Source of the DNA: Daphnia pulex
Lineage: Eukaryota; Arthropoda; Branchiopoda; Diplostraca; Daphniidae
Reading direction: 5' to 3'
NCBI RefSeq assembly: GCF_021134715.1
Contig: NC_060023.1
Location: 11,594,001 to 11,658,000, forward strand
Length of the DNA: 64,000 bases
Each line of letters starts with the position of its first letter. Within the stretch, counting starts at the first letter, position 1. Below are positions 51,821 to 61,489 of this stretch, one piece after another. The position numbers and the translations under genes were made by a program. Under the pieces are notes generated by a model. That model saw only the letters and a list, made by a program, of their open reading frames with translations, had not been told where the DNA came from and did not search any database.

Positions 51821-52801
51821 CTAATTATTTGTTTTCAAAATATCAGCACTATGTCGTAGAGATTTAGATTCACAGATAAACGAGTAACGATGATCGGTAC
51901 AACTCAAGTCATTCCATTCATGAATAAGGAGGGTTTCATTAAACGTTAAAACCCAAATTAGACATTCTTCTTGTGTACTTCCATGTACACGTGATGGTTC
52001 TCCCTCTTGCCAATTCATTTCTCTCGTGAGAATATCGCCTGTACCAGCCCACATCCAAGTTGATCGATTGCCGTAAAGACGATTACCGGATGTCAAGTAT
52101 AATTGTTTTTGAACTAAATTTTGAAAATTAGATTTCATTCAATTATACTTTGTAAAGAACATTTCCGTGATCACCATTTTTTTTCTCTGCTTTGAGTTGT
52201 TTGGCTAAATTGTTTTCTTCTTCTTTCGTCTCAAGCGACAGCAATTCCATGCCGTACTGCCGGCAATAATGGAGAGCACTCCACCAGTTTCTCTGTGAAA
52301 TAATTAGTGATGTAACCCAACAAGTGATTGAATTTCATTTAAATGAGACTGCTCTATATGTGTTTTATAATACATCTTCAGAGACGATGCAGTAGCATTC
52401 GCCGTTTACTTTCAAACAACGAAATTTTTTGGCCGTGAAATGTTTTGGGCAAGTTCCTTGTTACGCGAATTAAAAGATCAATTAAAGAAAGGTGAGTGTG
52501 AATAACTAAAAAGAAGTTAACCATTCATACCATGAATCAGGATATCGTTAATGTGATCCTCCTTTGAAATCTAATATTAACACAAAAAGAAAATTAATTT
52601 AAAAAACGACTAATTACAGATTAAATGATTTACCGTTTCAATCAGTGCAAAATATTCATCCTCGAGACTTTCAATTTCTTGTAAAAAGCTCGTGGATTCA
52701 GCACTAACAGGTGTAATTGGTACTATCACGCACAAACTGGCCATCAAGAAAACGATGAACGAGAAACTCAAAAAGTAGAAACAGTCGTTGGTTGTAATCA
52801 T
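51821..52801 (-). CDS. C-type lectin-like secreted protein 1
   Basis: Exons 52801-52634, 52570-52531, 52456-52374, 52292-52175 and 52113-51821 keep frame to 233 residues. An N-terminal hydrophobic segment (FLSFSFIVFLMASLCVIV) acts as signal peptide or anchor. The CTLD begins TCPKHFTAKKFRC and continues RNWWSALHYCRQYGMELLSLET and WMWAGTGDIL. In the site-2 region EPS replaces EPN/QPD while HEWND keeps the WND motif, followed by CTDHRYSFICES. Calcium and sugar binding are therefore uncertain. The gene is first in a tandem set of three with the same exon plan (signal exon, short linker, CTLD exons). Confidence 0.85.
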
Positions 52802-53055: not shown

Positions 53056-53973
53056 TCAAGTCTTTGATAAATTGCGGCTATTAAGCGGGAAAAAATCAAG
53101 AAACTTTTGACAAAGAAAATGGTTCTCCTCGAAACAGGATTCTGATAAAAAATCTCCTTTACTGGAGAATTTCAGGCAAGACTCGAATTCACTTGCGTCG
53201 CTGCTGCTATTAGGATTTTGATATAGCTGGCCAGTATTCATCCAAATCATCTGACCGCGGACGAAACGATCCGTCGCGCTAGTCCAGTACCATTCGCCTT
53301 TTCCATCGACGGCCGATGGATTGTTGACTTTGTGTTTAATCCATTCTACTTTGTCCGTCGGTACATCTGCCAGAGTCATCCGAAATTGACGGCAAAATGC
53401 TTCGGCTTTGTACCAAGTCGCCTTTGTCATTTAAAAAGCAAAACTTTGGTCACTATCACATGTCAACTTCTAATGCGCCGTATTAGGCTACACAGAAACC
53501 ACTTACCTTTTTATGGCTGAAACAAAGGCATTCGTTTATTCCAGACGCATGACAACGGAACTTCAATCCCTCATTGGCAGGTTCTTGCATTAGCATTTTG
53601 GGACAGATTCCTAAAAACAAATATGTTAATTCAAAGTACTCCACAGTTCTTTATAAGGCTTACCTTTTAGCAGTTGGACAAATGGTGGATTTTGCATCTC
53701 TGAGAGCATCTGTCGAATAAAATTTAAATAAATAAATGTTCCTTTCGTTACAAAGAAAATGTTGTTTACCGTTAAGATATTTTGTTCTGTAGACTGAACC
53801 AGGGAACTTAATCGCTCAACTAATCGATCCTGAAAGATGACGTCTTTTTTCACTTCAAGTGGATCGTCCATATCCAATAACGGATTTAATGTATTCTGTG
53901 CAGCGATCAAGTTAACGACCGTTAACTGAATAAAAAATACAAAAACCGGCGCAAAGTTCACTACGATTTTCAT
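53056..53973 (-). CDS. C-type lectin-like secreted protein 2
   Basis: Exons 53973-53770, 53709-53664, 53610-53507 and 53421-53056 give 239 residues. There is a signal peptide (APVFVFFIQLTVVNLIAAQ), a linker with a probable short coiled helix (DRLVERLSSLVQSTEQN), then a CTLD: ICPKML, FRCHASGINECLCFSHKKATWYKAEAFC, WYWTSATDRFV, ESCLKF and the final ESCFEENHFLCQKF. The cysteine frame is kept, but the EPN/QPD and WND calcium motifs are absent, so it is probably not a canonical Ca-dependent sugar binder. It shares architecture with its neighbours. Confidence 0.83.
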
Positions 53974-54236: not shown

Positions 54237-55161
54237 TTATGAAATATTTATGAATTGTTGACAAATGAATTGTTTCTTTTCCAAGCAGGATTCCGGATAG
54301 AATGTGAGTGTGTTATTGTTTAAACTGGAGCTGATGCAAGTTGTGGGTTGTGTCCAACTAGAGGTCGTGTTTTCGTTAAGGGGAGGCAATCCACTTAAAG
54401 TCAATTCATCAAGTCCATTAATTTGAAGCGATCGCTTAGAGGCTTTTTCTCGGCTCAAAATGGATCCATTACGGAAAATCCAGACCCGCCGAGTAATAAA
54501 GTCATTTGCTGACGTCCAAATGCCAGCTGATTGATCAAGAAAAAAATTTGTAACGAGATTAGATCTTGGCCTGCAATTTCTATCTTACCAGTCATAAGTG
54601 TTTTAACTGTTTGATCTTCAGCAGGGTTTCCAAATGGAAAAGATATCAAATGCATGCCGTGATAATCGCAAAAGGCATCAGCTGTAAACCAGTTCACTTT
54701 CTCCTGATTAAAGTCAATCCTACATTGAATCAGAGTAATAACGAAATGTGTTAATTAAGTCAAACCTTCTTTGAACTCCAGCAAATGCAACCATGAAGTT
54801 CCGTGACGATTTTGCATTCGAATTGGCTGTCAAATTCCAACGGACAAGTTCCTTGTTGGAATTAAATTCAAATTTTTACAACAAATTTCAATTCTGAACG
54901 AGCATCAACAGATTTACCTTCCCAGATACGAAAAAAAGTGCTTTGACTCATCCGATCTTTCTAAGAAAACACAACTATTAGTTAAATTGCATCATTAATT
55001 TTGAGTTTTTACCAACTCACCAAATTACGGAGACGAACCGTTCTTGCTTTTAGCAATTTGATCTGCTGATTCACGATTGTTGTTCCATGTGTTTCGGATG
55101 TTTGCGATGTTGAAAAAATTGCAGCGATAAAGAAAATGAATAAACAATTGATCCGGCGCAT
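54237..55161 (-). CDS. C-type lectin-like secreted protein 3
   Basis: Exons 55161-55021, 54960-54918, 54851-54766, 54703-54589 and 54526-54237 give 224 residues. Signal peptide INCLFIFFIAAIF; helix VNQQIKLLKARTVRLRN; CTLD from TCPLEFDSQFEC through GCICWSSKKEKVNWFTADAFC, GIWTSANDFITRRVWIF and TCISSSLN to ESCLEKKQFICQQF. The calcium-site motifs are missing. Without the 54527-54588 intron the frame appears to end early; that is an intron, not a frameshift. Tandem divergence at likely ligand loops is usual for secreted arthropod lectins involved in immunity or matrix; here the role is inference. Confidence 0.82.
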
Positions 55162-55435: not shown

Positions 55436-57682
55436 TTAATAATTAGTCGGAAACTGAGGAACAGAAGGAGGAGCAAACCGTGGTTTGTTCAGAACTTTGC
55501 CCAAACTGACTGCTTCATCGTAAACGCCTTGACCCCTGTGCAAACAACGAACGGTTATTGCCAAAAATCAGATGAACATTAATTAGCACAGAAAAATACT
55601 TACAGCAAATCACTAGCGCTGTTACTATTCAATTGTGGTAGAGGGAAGACAAAGGGGTAATTGATCTCTTCATAGTAATCTGCATGATCTTCACTGCCAT
55701 TGAAAGAAGAGTGTCCTGGATTGCTGAATCCTAAACCTGGCGGACGGGGAGCTCTTTGGTGATCAGTAAGCGAATACTCATTTTTTGAATTAGAGTGATG
55801 TTCGTTATCTAATGCCGAGTTTTTATTCCTGGAGAACAACCATCGAGTTATTTGGATGAAACAGAAGAAATTTAAGAAATAATATACTTAAAATGATATT
55901 TGAAGCATACAACGACAAGAATCAGGATCACTAAAAGGAAGAAAATGACTGAGCTCGTGGCGATGGCAATCCATTTGATGTAACCTTCGTCCTGTCCTGT
56001 TTTTTAAAAAATGATTTTAAAAAAGATGAGCTATTTCAAGTGATGAATTTCAGTTGAGTACCGGAAGGGAAAGAGGAGACTTCTATTTCGCATATGCTCA
56101 AATCAACTAGCGGTTTGAGCCGGATGAATCTTTTGGAACCAGTGATCAAATTGATCGTCAGATTAGACAAGAAGATGACCGCTTTGCCATACTCAATAGT
56201 ATCGTTGAACGTTTTCTCCCAGTGAGTCGTTTCATTATTCCAAGTTTTATCAATATCCACTACTGACACGTTAAACACATATAAACTAGCTGCAGTAATT
56301 AAGTACACAATTAGAATGAAATAAAAAATGGAATATTTTATGTTATATACTTTTGTGCGTTGTAATGCGGATGTCTTGTATCTTACTGTGGGTACTTTCG
56401 ATTGGAATTTTTTGAACAACTTCCTTTGGGAAAAGACGACAAGTGAGAAGGTTCCCATCGACAATTTCACTTAAAGTTTCCATAGATTTGTAAACGACGT
56501 TTTCATCTAAAAACAAAACATGAGATGACAAGATCAAACTGAAACTTTTCTTGCACTTTCATACCACACTCAGGAAGAAGATTATCCGGCCAAGTGCCGT
56601 CGTCCTGATTACAGGTAATCGGTTGAGGTTGAGAGATTGTCTTCAGGATCGATCCCGGTTTGCAAAATAAATACCAGAAATTTTTTTCCCCACTCGACAG
56701 CGTACGCTGTTTAATGGGTATCTGCGGAAAGATGCTGTAATTGGGCGACGGCAGGCTGCAATTAGCGATTTCATTACAGTGGCCAAAATAACGTTGACAG
56801 CCATCGTCGCAATGTAAGTTTATGTTGTTTTCTATGTCGCTTCCGCAAAACCCGTGTTTTGAACAACACAATTTGTCCGGGCAGTACCTGTTGTCATTTT
56901 CCACACCACAGAGATTACCTGTATCGATAAAAATATCCGTCATTTGTACGAGTAGTGGGGTAAACAAATGTATAACGTGAAATGTAGTATAACCTTTACT
57001 AGGAAATCCAATGGATGCGTTCACTACAGAATCACCAAACAGGAAAATTAGGATCGCGCATGTACCAAAATTTAGAAATGAAAGATACATTATTGCTGTA
57101 CCTCTAAATGGATGACAGTGACCGTAATTCGAATTACAAAATGTAATACAATGACCTTCTTCGTCACCGCAATATCCTAAAGTTGAACAGCACAATTGGT
57201 TCGGGCAACTTCTCTTAACTTTGGGACCGCAGTCTTGATCTGTATCTATATATAGATCAGACGATAGTCATTTGTACTAATAGGCGGGTAAACCTAATTT
57301 ATAAGTGAAATACTTTACCTCTACTAGAAGCTTCAGTCGATGCGTTCACTACAGAATCACCAAAAATGAAATAAATTAGAATTTAACGACTATTTAGAAA
57401 CTATTGCTTTACCGCTAGATGGATGGCAGTGGCCGTATTGCGGCTGACAACCTGAAATACAATGTTCGCCTGTTTCACCACAATATCCATATTTCGAACA
57501 GCATAAGTTGTTGGGGCATTTCGGTTCACCTGAGCCACACTTTTGGCATTCTGGATTACAAAGGATGAAAGATAAACAATTAAACCAATTTAAGAAAAAT
57601 TATTTTTACCGCAGAGTGGAATGGATCCCAGCAGATGAGCACCGAAAATCGTCAACACGACAAACCTCTCCGATAATAACAT
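55436..57682 (-). CDS. Hevein-domain (CBM18) transmembrane receptor-like protein
   Basis: Eleven exons (57682-57610, 57550-57413, 57348-57319, 57245-57102, 57023-56994, 56918-56565, 56506-56351, 56289-56062, 55996-55888, 55828-55604, 55535-55436) give 528 residues. After a signal peptide come three hevein-type domains (about 26-66, 85-126, 141-183). The first has CPNNLCCSKYGYCGETGEHC, with aromatic residues at two chitin-contact positions; domains 2 and 3 have CCSTLGYCG and CCSKHGFCG. Then follow a CCP-like module (about 187-257), a fucolectin/F5-8-type module (about 258-380: IVDGNLLTCR, SLYVFNVSVVD, KRFIRLKPLVDLSICEIEV) and a TM helix (about 391-415). The 110-residue tail holds YYEEINY, a Src-SH2-like pYEEI. 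All introns outside the tail share one phase. Likely a chitin or glycan sensor; function inferred. Confidence 0.8.
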
Positions 57683-58054
57683 GTTACTTCATTGAGAATA
57701 TGTCCGACTGGTTCAAAGTAGAATTTAAAAAAAAACAAAGAAATGTCTCAAGCAGTAATCCAAGCATTAACATTTGTAGCGTGAAGTTATATTATTATCT
57801 GTAATCGAAAGCAGACCCGGACATGTGGTGAAGGAAACCGGTTTTCCGGTCTCGATAACTTAAAGAAACAAAAGCAAGCATTAACAAACATATTTAAACA
57901 TTTGAGAAATTTTTATGTTGCTTAACACTAGATCCACTTTTTGAATTGACAACTATAACGTTTGACAATGACAATTGCATTTCAACATTCGAAAATGTTA
58001 TCAACACATAATTCAACTATTTTTAGTTGCAAGAGTTATTTCGCGTGAAGTTGT
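57683..58054. promoter_or_regulatory. Promoter interval of the hevein receptor with conserved block
   Basis: 57821-57850 contains ACATGTGGTGAAGGAAACCG followed by GTTTTCCGGT. It is repeated almost unchanged at 59565-59594 ahead of the broken copy. The core AAACCGGTTT is a 10-bp palindrome and, on the minus strand, GGAAAACC is a half-site-like Rel motif. Retention may reflect recent duplication or constraint. Confidence 0.4.
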
Positions 58055-58866
58055 TTAGGTGGGAGAATCGGGAACATGAGGAGGTGGAAAGTTAGGTTTG
58101 CCCAAAGGTGGGTTTGGAGTCTCGTAATCACCGCCTGTCGAGACTTCACCTCTGCGAATGGCAGATTATTCGTTAGTATAATTTCAAACAAAAATTATAG
58201 TTAGACAAGTAAAATGGACTTACTCAGGAGTAACTTTCATTGGATTGTCTTTGCCTCGAAGGTTCCCTGTGTCGCAATATTCGTACATGTACATGTCTTC
58301 GTATACGTTGTCATCGTCCGTTTGAAATGGAGGAAATGGAGGCATTGTTTTCGGTGGTCCTGGAACATGTGGGGATTGTCGGCGACCGAAAATATATTGA
58401 TTATTTACAGAGGGATTCTCTGATTTAAGACTACCTCTGTCACGTCTAAAAGGTTTAAAAATTAGTGAAAAAAAAATTAGGTTCTGAAATGTAAAATACA
58501 TCACTGTTAAGTTATCTACCTCTGTGATGACCGAATCCATTTTTTAGTTACGAAGACGGTTACAACCAACAGAAGCAAGACAATTATTGGAACAGTGATA
58601 GCCACAGTCAACGTGGCGGTATCGTGTCCTTTTTTAATTTCTTGGGTACAGGTACGTTTTAGGCAACTCAACGAACAGTTAAGCGTCGCACAATTACCAA
58701 TTTTATTTTTGGGACCACAGGTTTGAAATTGACAGTCTATTTTTTTTAAATAAATGCAATTAAATCGTTTTTAATAAGACAGGGATGTCAACTTGTTACC
58801 GGCAAATTGAAGGAAGCTGCCAAAGAAAACAGAAAACAGGAAAAATATGGTGAAATTCATCATCAT
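58055..58866 (-). CDS. Small single-pass membrane protein with Cys-rich ectodomain and tyrosine tail
   Basis: Exons 58866-58800, 58736-58520, 58445-58224 and 58151-58055 give 200 residues. Signal peptide (NFTIFFLFSVFFGSFLQFA); short ectodomain with seven cysteines (DCQFQTCGPKNKIGNC...CSLSCLKRTC) that fits no family I know; TM helix (TLTVAITVPIIVLLLLVVTVF); tail of about 110 residues. The tail is proline-rich with VYEDMYMYEY (residues 142-151; YEDM is a YxxM PI3K-SH2-type motif) and ends GKPNFPPPHVPDSPT. Tail blocks PGPP, acidic-Y-E-(E/D) and KP-x-F-x-PP-x-VP recur in order in the hevein receptor next door. No ITAM spacing was seen. A signalling partner or decoy is possible; inferred. Confidence 0.75.
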
Positions 58867-59186
58867 AACTCGCTAAAAAAAATGAACCTTTCAGAATTTT
58901 CCTAAACAAGTAAATAAAAAAACGGCCGTAAGTTGAAAACTAAGAAAAAGTTGTTCTGTGTATAACCGTTTCCGGTATTGCTACTTTTATCAAGGAAGTG
59001 GTGACTTTTCTAAGCTGATGTCAGAGAAAAAAGAGAAAGAAGGTAATATCGATAGCACCTTAAACTTTAATCAAAACGTTCTATACTCACAAAAGTCTCA
59101 TCCGTTCAAAATTGATTCCGTTCAATACGGAATCACAAAAGTCAATATAAATTAGGATCGATAGGTACGATAAACTATTGCTTTAC
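58867..59186. other. Spacer, duplicated 5' flank of the small membrane protein
   Basis: Sequence at 59010-59110 (GAGAAAGAAGGT, GATAGCACCTTAAA, TTTAATCAAA) recurs at 60715-60780 upstream of the paralogue, marking the duplicated block's edge. Confidence 0.55.
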
Positions 59187-59410
59187 CTTTAGATGGATGA
59201 CGGCGACCATATTGCGAATTACAAGCTGTATTGCTAAGTCCATCTGTTTCACCACAATATCCATGTTTCGAACAGCATTTCGGTTTATCGGAGCCGAACC
59301 TATGGCATTCTGGATTACACAGTATAAGAGCTGAACAATGAAAAAAATTTAAGGAAAAGAATTCTTTTACCGCAGAGTTGTATGGATCCCAGCAGATGAG
59401 CACCAAACAT
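59187..59410 (-). pseudogene. Broken duplicate of hevein receptor exons 1-2
   Basis: Exon 1 remnant (59410-59371) reads GAHLLGSIQLCG as in the intact gene, but its upstream signal-peptide codons are out of frame and the original ATG is lost. Exon 2 (59309-59187) keeps KCCSKHGYCGETDG but has CG to FG, a deletion of the CPNNL segment and a C-to-R change near the end, so at least three disulphide cysteines are gone. No later exons follow before the next gene, so only the 5' part was duplicated. Confidence 0.75.
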
Positions 59411-59765
59411 CTTTAACACGACAAATCTTTGATTATAACACGAAGTTCATTCGGAATATGCGCATATGCCTGTTTCTAGGTAGATTTTTAAAAATACCTC
59501 GAAGCAATAATCAAACATTATAGCGTGAAATTTTATTATTATCTGATATCCACAGCGACCCCGAACATGTGGTGAAGGAAACCGGTTTTCCGGTGTCGAT
59601 AAATTAATTTAAGAAACAAAATTAAGCAAGCAATATCGACAAGATTAAAATATTAGTGAAATTTCAAAAGTTGGCTAAACAGTAACGTTTGACAAAGACA
59701 ATTGCATTTCAGCAATATTAGAAAATGTTATCAATACATAATTCAACTATTAAGTGTTGCAAGAG
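59411..59765. other. Spacer, duplicate of the hevein promoter interval
   Basis: It carries the second copy of the GGTGAAGGAAACCGG block (59565-59594) and the TTTTATTATTATCTG leader, matching 57785-57850. No gene seen. Confidence 0.55.
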
Positions 59766-60566
59766 TTATTTCGCGTAAAGTTGTTTAGGTGGGGATTCGG
59801 GAACATGAGGAGGTGGAAAATTAGGTTTGCCCAAAGGTGGGTTTGGAGTCAAGTAATCACCGTCTGTCGAGACTTCACCTCTGAGAATGGCATCATTTTT
59901 GTTAGTATAATTTCAAACAAAAATTAGTCAGTTAAATAAAATAGACTAACCTAGCCGTAACTTTCATTGGATTGTCTTCGCCTCGAAGGTTATCTATTTC
60001 GCAATAGTCGTACTCGTTTTGTTCTACGTTGCCATTGATTGGAAAGATGGGCATTGTTTTTGGTGGTCCTGGAACACCTCGACGACTAAAAGAATACTTA
60101 TTCGGTACCGAGAGATTTTCTGATTTAAGACTATCTCGGTTATTCCTAAAAGGTTTAAAAATTAATGACAAGTAAAAATTGAGACGAAATGAAAACTACG
60201 TCATCAATGTTATTACCTCTGTCGCGATCGAACGCATTTTATTGTGACGAAGACGGCAGCAACCAACAGAAGCAGGACACATATAGGAACAGCGATGGCC
60301 GTAACCTGGTCGACGCCTTCCGAAACGATACAAAGACGTTTTTGGCAACGTGATGACGGACAGGTAAGCGTCGTACACTCGGCAGCTTTTTTTTTCGAAC
60401 CACAATTTTGATTTACTAGACTATTTTTAGATGAATCTATTTTTATAAAGGAATGTGCAATTAAATAGCTTGTAATAAGATAAGATGGTCAAATTGTTAC
60501 GGCGAATTGAAGTAAGCTGAAAAAGAGAACAGAAAACAAGAAAAACATTGTGAAATTCATTTTCAT
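59766..60566 (-). pseudogene. Paralogue of the small membrane protein, one-base loss at a splice donor
   Basis: Exons 60566-60501, 60436-60217, 60145-59951 and 59880-59766 are clearly homologous to the gene at 58055-58866: signal peptide NFTMFFLFSVLFFSLLQFA, CGSKKKAAEC...CQKRLC, TM AIAVPICVLLLLVAAVFV, tail VPGPPKTMPIF, NEYDYCEIDN, GKPNFPPPHVPESPPK. The first donor is GCC|GTAACA where the paralogue has GCCG|GTAACA, so exon 1 ends one base short. The simple splice meets a TAG soon after. Either it is a recent pseudogene, it uses another splice, or the base was missed in sequencing. Everything downstream is intact. The YEDM motif is replaced by YDYCEI. Confidence 0.6.
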
Positions 60567-61489
60567 AACGTTACATTAAAAATGCATCCTTTCAGAATTT
60601 GCCTAAACAAGTAAATAAAAAACGCTACTGTTTAAAACTGAGAAAAGTTGCCTTACATTACCATTTCCGATATCACAACTTTATCGAGGAAGTGGTAAAG
60701 CTGATATTAGGAAAACAGAGAAAGAAGGTTAAAAATGGATAGCACCTTGAATTTTAATCAAAGCATACTCACTGAAGTCTCAAGGATTTTTCAACTAAGA
60801 ACTCGATCAGAAACATGAATTAATATTCCTAAGGGTCATCTAGGAAATAATACCTGATTTTCCAGAGAATAACAAAAGAAGAAGCTTAAAGGCAACCGCC
60901 TTTTTACAATTCTTATGTTTTTACTCCCGTCACCGAAACCAAGGAAGAATTAGAAATCCCTCGACAGCATGCTGAGGTCACCAAGGACAAACATTCCACT
61001 AAGAAAAATGTTCGATGAGAAGTTATTAAAAAAACATAAAAACAAGTATTAGACATCGGCTTTTTCCAAGAACATGCAAATCAGACAAATATGTACCCAA
61101 CCATAATTCAGGATCCCGTTTATGGTCACCGACAGCATCTCTGTTGCTGTTAGGTACTGCCTAGAACCTAAAAATGTCTCACATTGACTAGAGAAATTTT
61201 AATTGACGTGACGAAAACGACGTTCAGCTGAAAAGTGAATTTCAAAGATAATAAACTACTCTGATAATGTCAGAAATTTCTTTATTAACACTTCCGGAGA
61301 AGCAACGAATCAAAAACGTGAAGAGAAAAAATTTAGACCCGAGTTACATTCCAGTGGAACATAACATCAACTGAGTTAACACAAAATGTACGAAAAAAAA
61401 TGAATTTTTGAAAGTGCGAGTACCTTAAAGGCTTTCACGCATTCAAATTCCAAACCTTTTGAAAATATCCAGGAAAAAGAAATAGATAA
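60567..61489. other. Intergenic, no gene seen
   Basis: AT-rich. Apart from the duplicated flank to about 60790, nothing coding or repetitive was recognised. Confidence 0.5.

Follow-up and report, generated by a model that had tools for sequence, protein, structure and literature searches.

CBM14 is the usual chitin-binding module of animals. Wheat germ agglutinin and the other plant lectins with several hevein domains are soluble proteins, without a transmembrane (TM) helix or a cytoplasmic tail. A preliminary description of the locus presented here called hevein-type domains known chiefly from plants and fungi, which agrees with their distribution, although animal examples had already been published (PMC5297725; PMC6362431). 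In nematodes, hevein domains are joined to a GH18 chitinase, in what was claimed as the first report from animals (PMC5297725), and 136 metazoan hevein sequences have been counted (PMC6362431). In Drosophila, an F-type lectin domain occurs together with a C-type lectin domain, CCP and a predicted TM helix in CG9095 and in furrowed, the latter with a role in cell adhesion (PMC5712786). By their titles, most of the listed papers on chitin receptors are mammalian or plant, with none on an arthropod receptor; titles and abstract openings listed from the open-licence literature gave neither an arthropod hevein receptor nor a hevein transmembrane receptor, and the word "hevein" is absent from the main text of the D. 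pulex immune-gene survey (PMC2685406).

Here, we describe a gene of Daphnia pulex that, judged by its reading frame and splice sites, is real, intact and unusual in architecture, and that would encode a membrane receptor with three hevein domains. It lies in a window of 64,000 nucleotides (NCBI RefSeq assembly GCF_021134715.1, contig NC_060023.1, positions 11,594,001 to 11,658,000), and coordinates given without a contig are positions in that window.

Gene model and domain architecture

The single gene runs on the minus strand from 57682 to 55436. Built by hand from splice sites, with the sequence alone as its basis, the model has 11 exons that join into 1587 nt with the stop codon and encode 528 amino acids without an internal stop. 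All 10 introns are GT-AG, and the 11-exon model with short introns given in the preliminary description thus holds as an open reading of this length. The first eight introns, all of them before the TM exon, are in phase 1 and the last two in phase 2; phase 1 introns are usual for the shuffled extracellular modules of animals. Exons 4 to 6 and the two introns that they enclose form one open frame of 254 amino acids, so that retention of both introns would keep the frame.

Exon 1 (57610..57682; minus strand, as are all the exons that follow) holds the start codon and a likely signal peptide (MLLSERFVVLTIFGAHLLGSIPLC) and ends in phase 1 at the donor gtaaaa. Hevein domain 1 (CGSGEPKCPNNLCCSKYGYCGETGEHCISGCQPQYGHC) occupies exon 2 (57413..57550, phase 1-1), domain 2 exon 4 (57102..57245, phase 1-1) and domain 3 the first part of exon 6 (56776..56918). 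Between them lie the two 30-bp linker exons that had been predicted, exon 3 (57319..57348; VNASTEASSR) and exon 5 (56994..57023; VNASIGFPSK), each with an N-glycosylation sequon in its VNAS. The claim that every hevein domain has an exon of its own is correct for domains 1 and 2 and fails for domain 3, which shares exon 6 with a CCP/Sushi-like stretch (C..CKPG..CNQDDGTWPDNLLPEC; 56565..56775). About 130 residues separate the CCP-like stretch from the TM helix; exon 7 (56351..56506) and exon 8 (56062..56289, ending LSICEIEVSS) carry, by weak similarity, the first and second halves of a possible F-type-lectin/F5-8-like stretch.

The CCP-like and fucolectin/F5-8-like modules of the preliminary description fared unequally. 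Neither stretch matched a Pfam family at E<=10 with the HMMER filters on; in the PDB the CCP-like stretch had no match, and the F5/8-like stretch had two chance-level matches to a GTPase and none that was credible. A Sushi profile built from 26 sequences (25 distinct) of the 107 Sushi matches in the D. pulex genome scored the CCP-like stretch at 7.9 bits when cut out and at 3.5 bits within the whole protein, with the displayed alignment covering the C-terminal third of the profile only. The 7.9 bits were equalled by none of 2000 Cys-fixed shuffles and by 1 of 2000 plain shuffles, which lends the label modest support for this cysteine-bearing stretch. The F5/8-like stretch scored 42 against the F-type lectin exons of a furrowed-like locus on contig C4, a score that 16 in 5000 shuffles with fixed cysteines and 11 in 5000 plain ones attained, and its score against an F-type lectin domain on contig C1 was reached by 1876 of 5000 shuffles; the fucolectin/F5-8 label is weak and ranks below the CCP label.

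Furrowed/CG9095-like loci are present at C4:5672846-5677134 and C1:2661063-2664556, with F-type lectin (PF22633) and Sushi exons and, by eye, C-type-lectin-like exons.

Hydropathy over 19 residues exceeds 1.6 at residues 6-26 (1.63-1.68) and 389-422 only and reaches 3.12 in the TM helix of exon 9 (55888..55996; residues about 394-416), which supports a predicted single-pass membrane protein with an N-terminal signal-like stretch and one TM helix. The tail, of about 110 residues, is encoded by exon 10 (55604..55828; YSLT, YYEEI, YPFV and PRPP) and exon 11 (55436..55535; VYDEAVSLGKVLNKPRFAPPSVPQFPTNY and the stop codon). With this hydropathy and six tyrosines (in YSLT, YYEE, YEEI, YPFV and YDEA and at the C-terminus), the TM helix and tyrosine-bearing tail noted earlier are clear. 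The ITAM motif is YxxI/L-x(6-12)-YxxI/L; the spacing of the tail tyrosines does not fit it, which counts against the receptor function proposed below. YEEI belongs to the classic type of Src-family SH2 site. The 528-residue protein has no Pfam match to a kinase, and Lectin_C is absent among the five Pfam families listed for it at E<=10.

This architecture raises an alternative to chitin sensing, namely that the protein is a receptor for attachment to chitin which the animal itself makes, tying epidermal or gut cells to the cuticle or the peritrophic matrix and serving adhesion rather than pathogen sensing. The architecture of furrowed, with its role in adhesion, and of CG9095 favours this (PMC5712786), and the CCP-like and possible F-type-lectin stretches point weakly in the same direction. 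The genome, however, already holds at least 111 CBM14 matches at E<=0.001 (150 of the 243 candidates scored), along with the two furrowed-like loci elsewhere, and we consider attachment to own chitin possible though rather unlikely.

Hevein domains and their sugar-contact residues

All three domains exceed the PF00187 gathering cut-off of 27.8 bits (36.0, 31.3 and 31.8 bits for domains 1, 2 and 3), and the whole spliced protein matches the family at E 5.8e-21. Of 30 distinct PDB sequences matched at E<=1, 28 bear the names of hevein-type proteins; the best of them is wheat germ agglutinin (9.8e-13), with which domain 1 can be aligned. The other two matches are weak and align outside the hevein part. 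Hence the three hevein (CBM18) domains first proposed are confirmed by the family profile and by the PDB matches. When the genome was searched (133,188,837 bases in 13 contigs), the PF00187 profile gave 10 matches from 12 candidates at E up to 10, and the receptor's three are the only ones above the cut-off. Four more, partial and weak (E 1.5-2.3), lie on contigs C1 and C2 and, twice, on C8.

Matches of the receptor to contigs C5 and C8 (E 0.005 and 0.02) were ascribed to likeness of the TM helix. By eye, L011 (its first 100 bases) is an FNIII-type protein and L012 is exostosin-like, and both were dropped as receptor relatives.

Domains 2 and 3 have eight cysteines each and the exon-2 stretch has nine. 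In an alignment of six Daphnia sequences, three of them the receptor domains (alignment A1), all eight cysteine columns are invariant, and domain 3 carries an insert of five residues between the fifth and sixth cysteines. Following the hevein numbering of PMC5297725, positions 19, 21, 23 and 30 in alignment A1 are S, Y, Y and H in domain 1, S, L, Y and H in domain 2, and S, H, F and H in domain 3. Ser 19 is thus kept throughout, and F, W or Y is found at position 21 in domain 1 alone, at position 23 in all three domains (Y, Y and F) and at position 30 in none, His standing there in every receptor domain where hevein has Tyr. Domain 1, the one domain to retain its aromatic sugar contacts reasonably well, is the best candidate binder; in domains 2 and 3 the binding residues have degenerated. 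Leu and His at position 21 in domains 2 and 3, respectively, and His at 30 throughout, count against chitin binding. The aromatic residue at 21 is missing in all but one of the C. elegans hevein domains described (PMC5297725).

Contig C5 carries three small secreted-peptide genes (C5:9794935-9799612; L072), modelled by eye with two exons each and encoding a signal peptide, a short pro-region and a single eight-cysteine module. Their matches to PF00187 are weak (E 0.00039, 0.025 and 0.0048), covering positions 1-36 of 38 in each, and fall below the cut-off, yet the family is the top Pfam match for each peptide. One of the peptides was compared with the PDB at E<=10, and 18 of 18 matches were hevein-type by name, the best being an antimicrobial peptide (7.3e-4). 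A protein search of the genome gave no more copies. The peptides share with the receptor domains an HC...C...(Y/F/W)GxC ending, and in all three Glu replaces the aromatic residue at position 23, which makes classical chitin binding by the peptides doubtful.

Such substitutions bear on a second alternative, in which the hevein fold serves a role other than chitin binding: protein binding, peptidase inhibition or recognition of another glycan. The aromatic triad is incomplete in domains 2 and 3, position 30 is His in three of three domains, and the C5 peptides, without exception, combine an intact cysteine frame with Glu at 23; wheat hevein-like peptides, moreover, are reported to inhibit fungal metalloproteases (cited in PMC5297725). 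Domain 1 argues the other way, with Ser, Tyr and Tyr at 19, 21 and 23 and a close alignment to wheat germ agglutinin. We regard a non-chitin role as unlikely and keep domain 1 as the putative chitin binder.

The hevein array has grown by local copying. The repeated unit consists of a hevein exon, an intron, a linker exon and an intron, and between units 1 and 2 the introns are identical at 52 of 61 (85.2%) and 56 of 68 (82.4%) aligned bases, gaps left out, both alignments outscoring all of 500 shuffles. The linker exons are identical at 23 of 30 bases and the hevein exons at 100 of 134. The exon duplication that the preliminary description had suggested thus finds support from the introns as well, and copied the hevein/linker unit as a whole. 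Relatedness between the introns 5' of hevein domains 1 and 2 found no support (score 26.3, against a shuffle maximum of 30.1, n=500).

Within 56919-57412, the unit introns (82-85%) are more alike than the hevein exons (75%), which suggests conversion, or later copying, of the intron-linker stretch.

Substitution rates between the hevein exons point to purifying pressure. For domains 1 and 3, pN is 0.349 and pS 0.839, with silent sites saturated; for domains 2 and 3, pN is 0.355 and pS 0.654 (Ka/Ks 0.31); and for domains 1 and 2, pN is 0.261 and pS 0.414 (Ka/Ks 0.53, with zero inside the bootstrap interval). By this measure, the hevein fold is under constraint.

A cluster of receptor-like and lectin-like genes

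A larger tandem duplication adjoins and overlaps the receptor gene: 57343-59100 is copied as 59119-60782, with 73.7% identity over 1807 aligned bases. The first two exons of the hevein gene were copied along with a small receptor gene, and the alignment of the two copies reveals a decayed version of these hevein-gene exons (59152..59446, minus strand) in which several cysteines are lost. This decayed version matches PF00187 at 14.2 bits (E 0.055). Antimicrobial_6 ranks ahead at E 0.022, a match at chance level, and neither match reaches its family's cut-off.

Small receptor gene A (58055..58866, minus strand) has 4 exons and encodes 200 amino acids, with a signal, a Cys-rich stretch, a TM helix and a tyrosine-bearing tail. 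In copy B (59766..60566, minus strand), exon 1 falls one base short at its donor and the joined exons do not divide into whole codons; copy B is probably a pseudogene. The genome has no further copies at E<=1.

The last tail exon of the hevein receptor resembles that of small receptor A, with a score of 55 where the maximum in 2000 shuffles was 43 (0 of 2000 as good). For the whole tails, 1 of 2000 shuffles did as well, and for the middle part alone 176 of 2000, so that homology of the tails rests on the last exon. The phases of the tail exons, read from the exons in the small gene, are equal in the two genes. Small receptor A is a neighbour of the hevein receptor and, through its tail, a partial relative. 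A hevein origin of the Cys-rich ectodomain of the small receptors found no support, as Cys-fixed shuffles reached the score in 1967, 205 and 1262 of 2000 cases for domains 1, 2 and 3, respectively.

Between the small receptor copies, Ka/Ks is 0.33-0.76 by exon or part, with zero within every bootstrap interval. Their exon 2, which encodes the ectodomain and the TM helix, is 67.8% identical between copies, compared with 78.2% in the non-coding remainder of the duplication, and its pS of 0.40 is also raised. Positive selection on the hevein exons and the small receptors found no statistical support: every Ka/Ks that could be computed is below 1, and none of the bootstrap intervals is wholly positive.

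The state of these neighbours bears on two of the alternatives. A hevein fragment in decay and a receptor copy with a broken frame next door are what one might see if the hevein gene, too, were on its way out, a lineage-specific remnant expressed little or never. We consider this very improbable given the gene itself, with 528 codons in 11 exons free of lesions and conserved hevein cysteines. A cluster of this make-up, with its decayed copy beside a probable pseudogene, would also suit a family in fast turnover better than a structural gene, which argues against attachment to the animal's own chitin.

Next downstream of the receptor is a C-type-lectin-like gene (54237..55161, minus strand), recognised by eye, with no Pfam match in the two frames tested. 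It is followed, on the same strand as the receptor, by a Lectin_C match above the cut-off (53059-53430) and a weak one (51824-52138).

Possible function and relation to known systems

What might such a receptor do? Taking domain content as the guide, a chitin receptor is the most likely function. Our confidence is about evenly balanced in the full proposal, a functional single-pass type I receptor whose hevein array would bind chitin or GlcNAc oligomers at the cell surface and then signal. In its favour are the intact frame, the three hevein domains above the cut-off with the contact residues that they keep, pN lower than pS between the hevein exons, the phase 1 introns before the TM exon, the likeness of the last tail exon to that of small receptor A, and the Lectin_C neighbours on the same strand. 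The three hevein modules, with their sequon-bearing linkers, would bind chitin or other GlcNAc oligomers mainly via domain 1. A multivalent ligand, such as the wall of a fungus or microsporidian, cuticle shed at the moult or the chitin of the gut lining, could then cluster the receptor, upon which the tail tyrosines would be phosphorylated and SH2/SH3 adaptors recruited. We infer chitin binding, signalling and immune use alike from the domains present, and an immune role would be a further step. Chitin also covers the arthropod itself, and any sensor of it would need some means of ignoring self, a point against the proposal.

A broader and more speculative proposal is that Daphnia evolved its own transmembrane pattern-recognition receptor for chitin from hevein modules, independently of the plant LysM kinases and of FIBCD1, with the secreted C5 peptides possibly competing for, or presenting, the same ligand, and with turnover of the cluster driven by chitin-walled parasites. 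Taken as a whole, we think this improbable.

How chitin-covered arthropods recognise chitin-walled parasites would become testable with a defined gene in Daphnia, which is genetically tractable and is parasitised by fungi and microsporidia.

Among the systems that the receptor can be compared with, wheat germ agglutinin and the other multi-hevein lectins of plants share with it a tandem array of hevein domains whose core is of the CPNNLCCSQYGYCG type. In plants, CERK1 and CEBiP have LysM ectodomains, and CERK1 is also a kinase. Like the function proposed here, recognition of chitin by CERK1/CEBiP takes place at the cell surface (PMC9742455). The same is true of vertebrate FIBCD1, which recognises chitin at the plasma membrane through a fibrinogen-like domain, where the Daphnia receptor has hevein domains (PMC3908420). 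Furrowed and CG9095 have CCP, an F-type lectin domain and a TM helix, to which the CCP and F-type-lectin likeness of the Daphnia gene is weak; they also have a C-type lectin domain, with hevein unmentioned in the accessible text (PMC5712786), whereas the Daphnia receptor has hevein domains and Lectin_C is not among its listed Pfam families.

The nematode proteins (C. elegans T01C4.1, F07G11.9 and T13H5.3) are, like the receptor, ecdysozoan. They share with it a signal peptide and hevein domains, two or three in number, that have eight cysteines and an aromatic triad that is incomplete (PMC5297725). All three contain GH18 and the two longest LysM, and a TM receptor with a tyrosine-bearing tail is not among the proteins described in the accessible text (PMC5297725). 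With the gene presented here, the published hevein domains of animals reach beyond nematode chitinases to a predicted crustacean membrane protein, with its modules carried on phase-1 exons.
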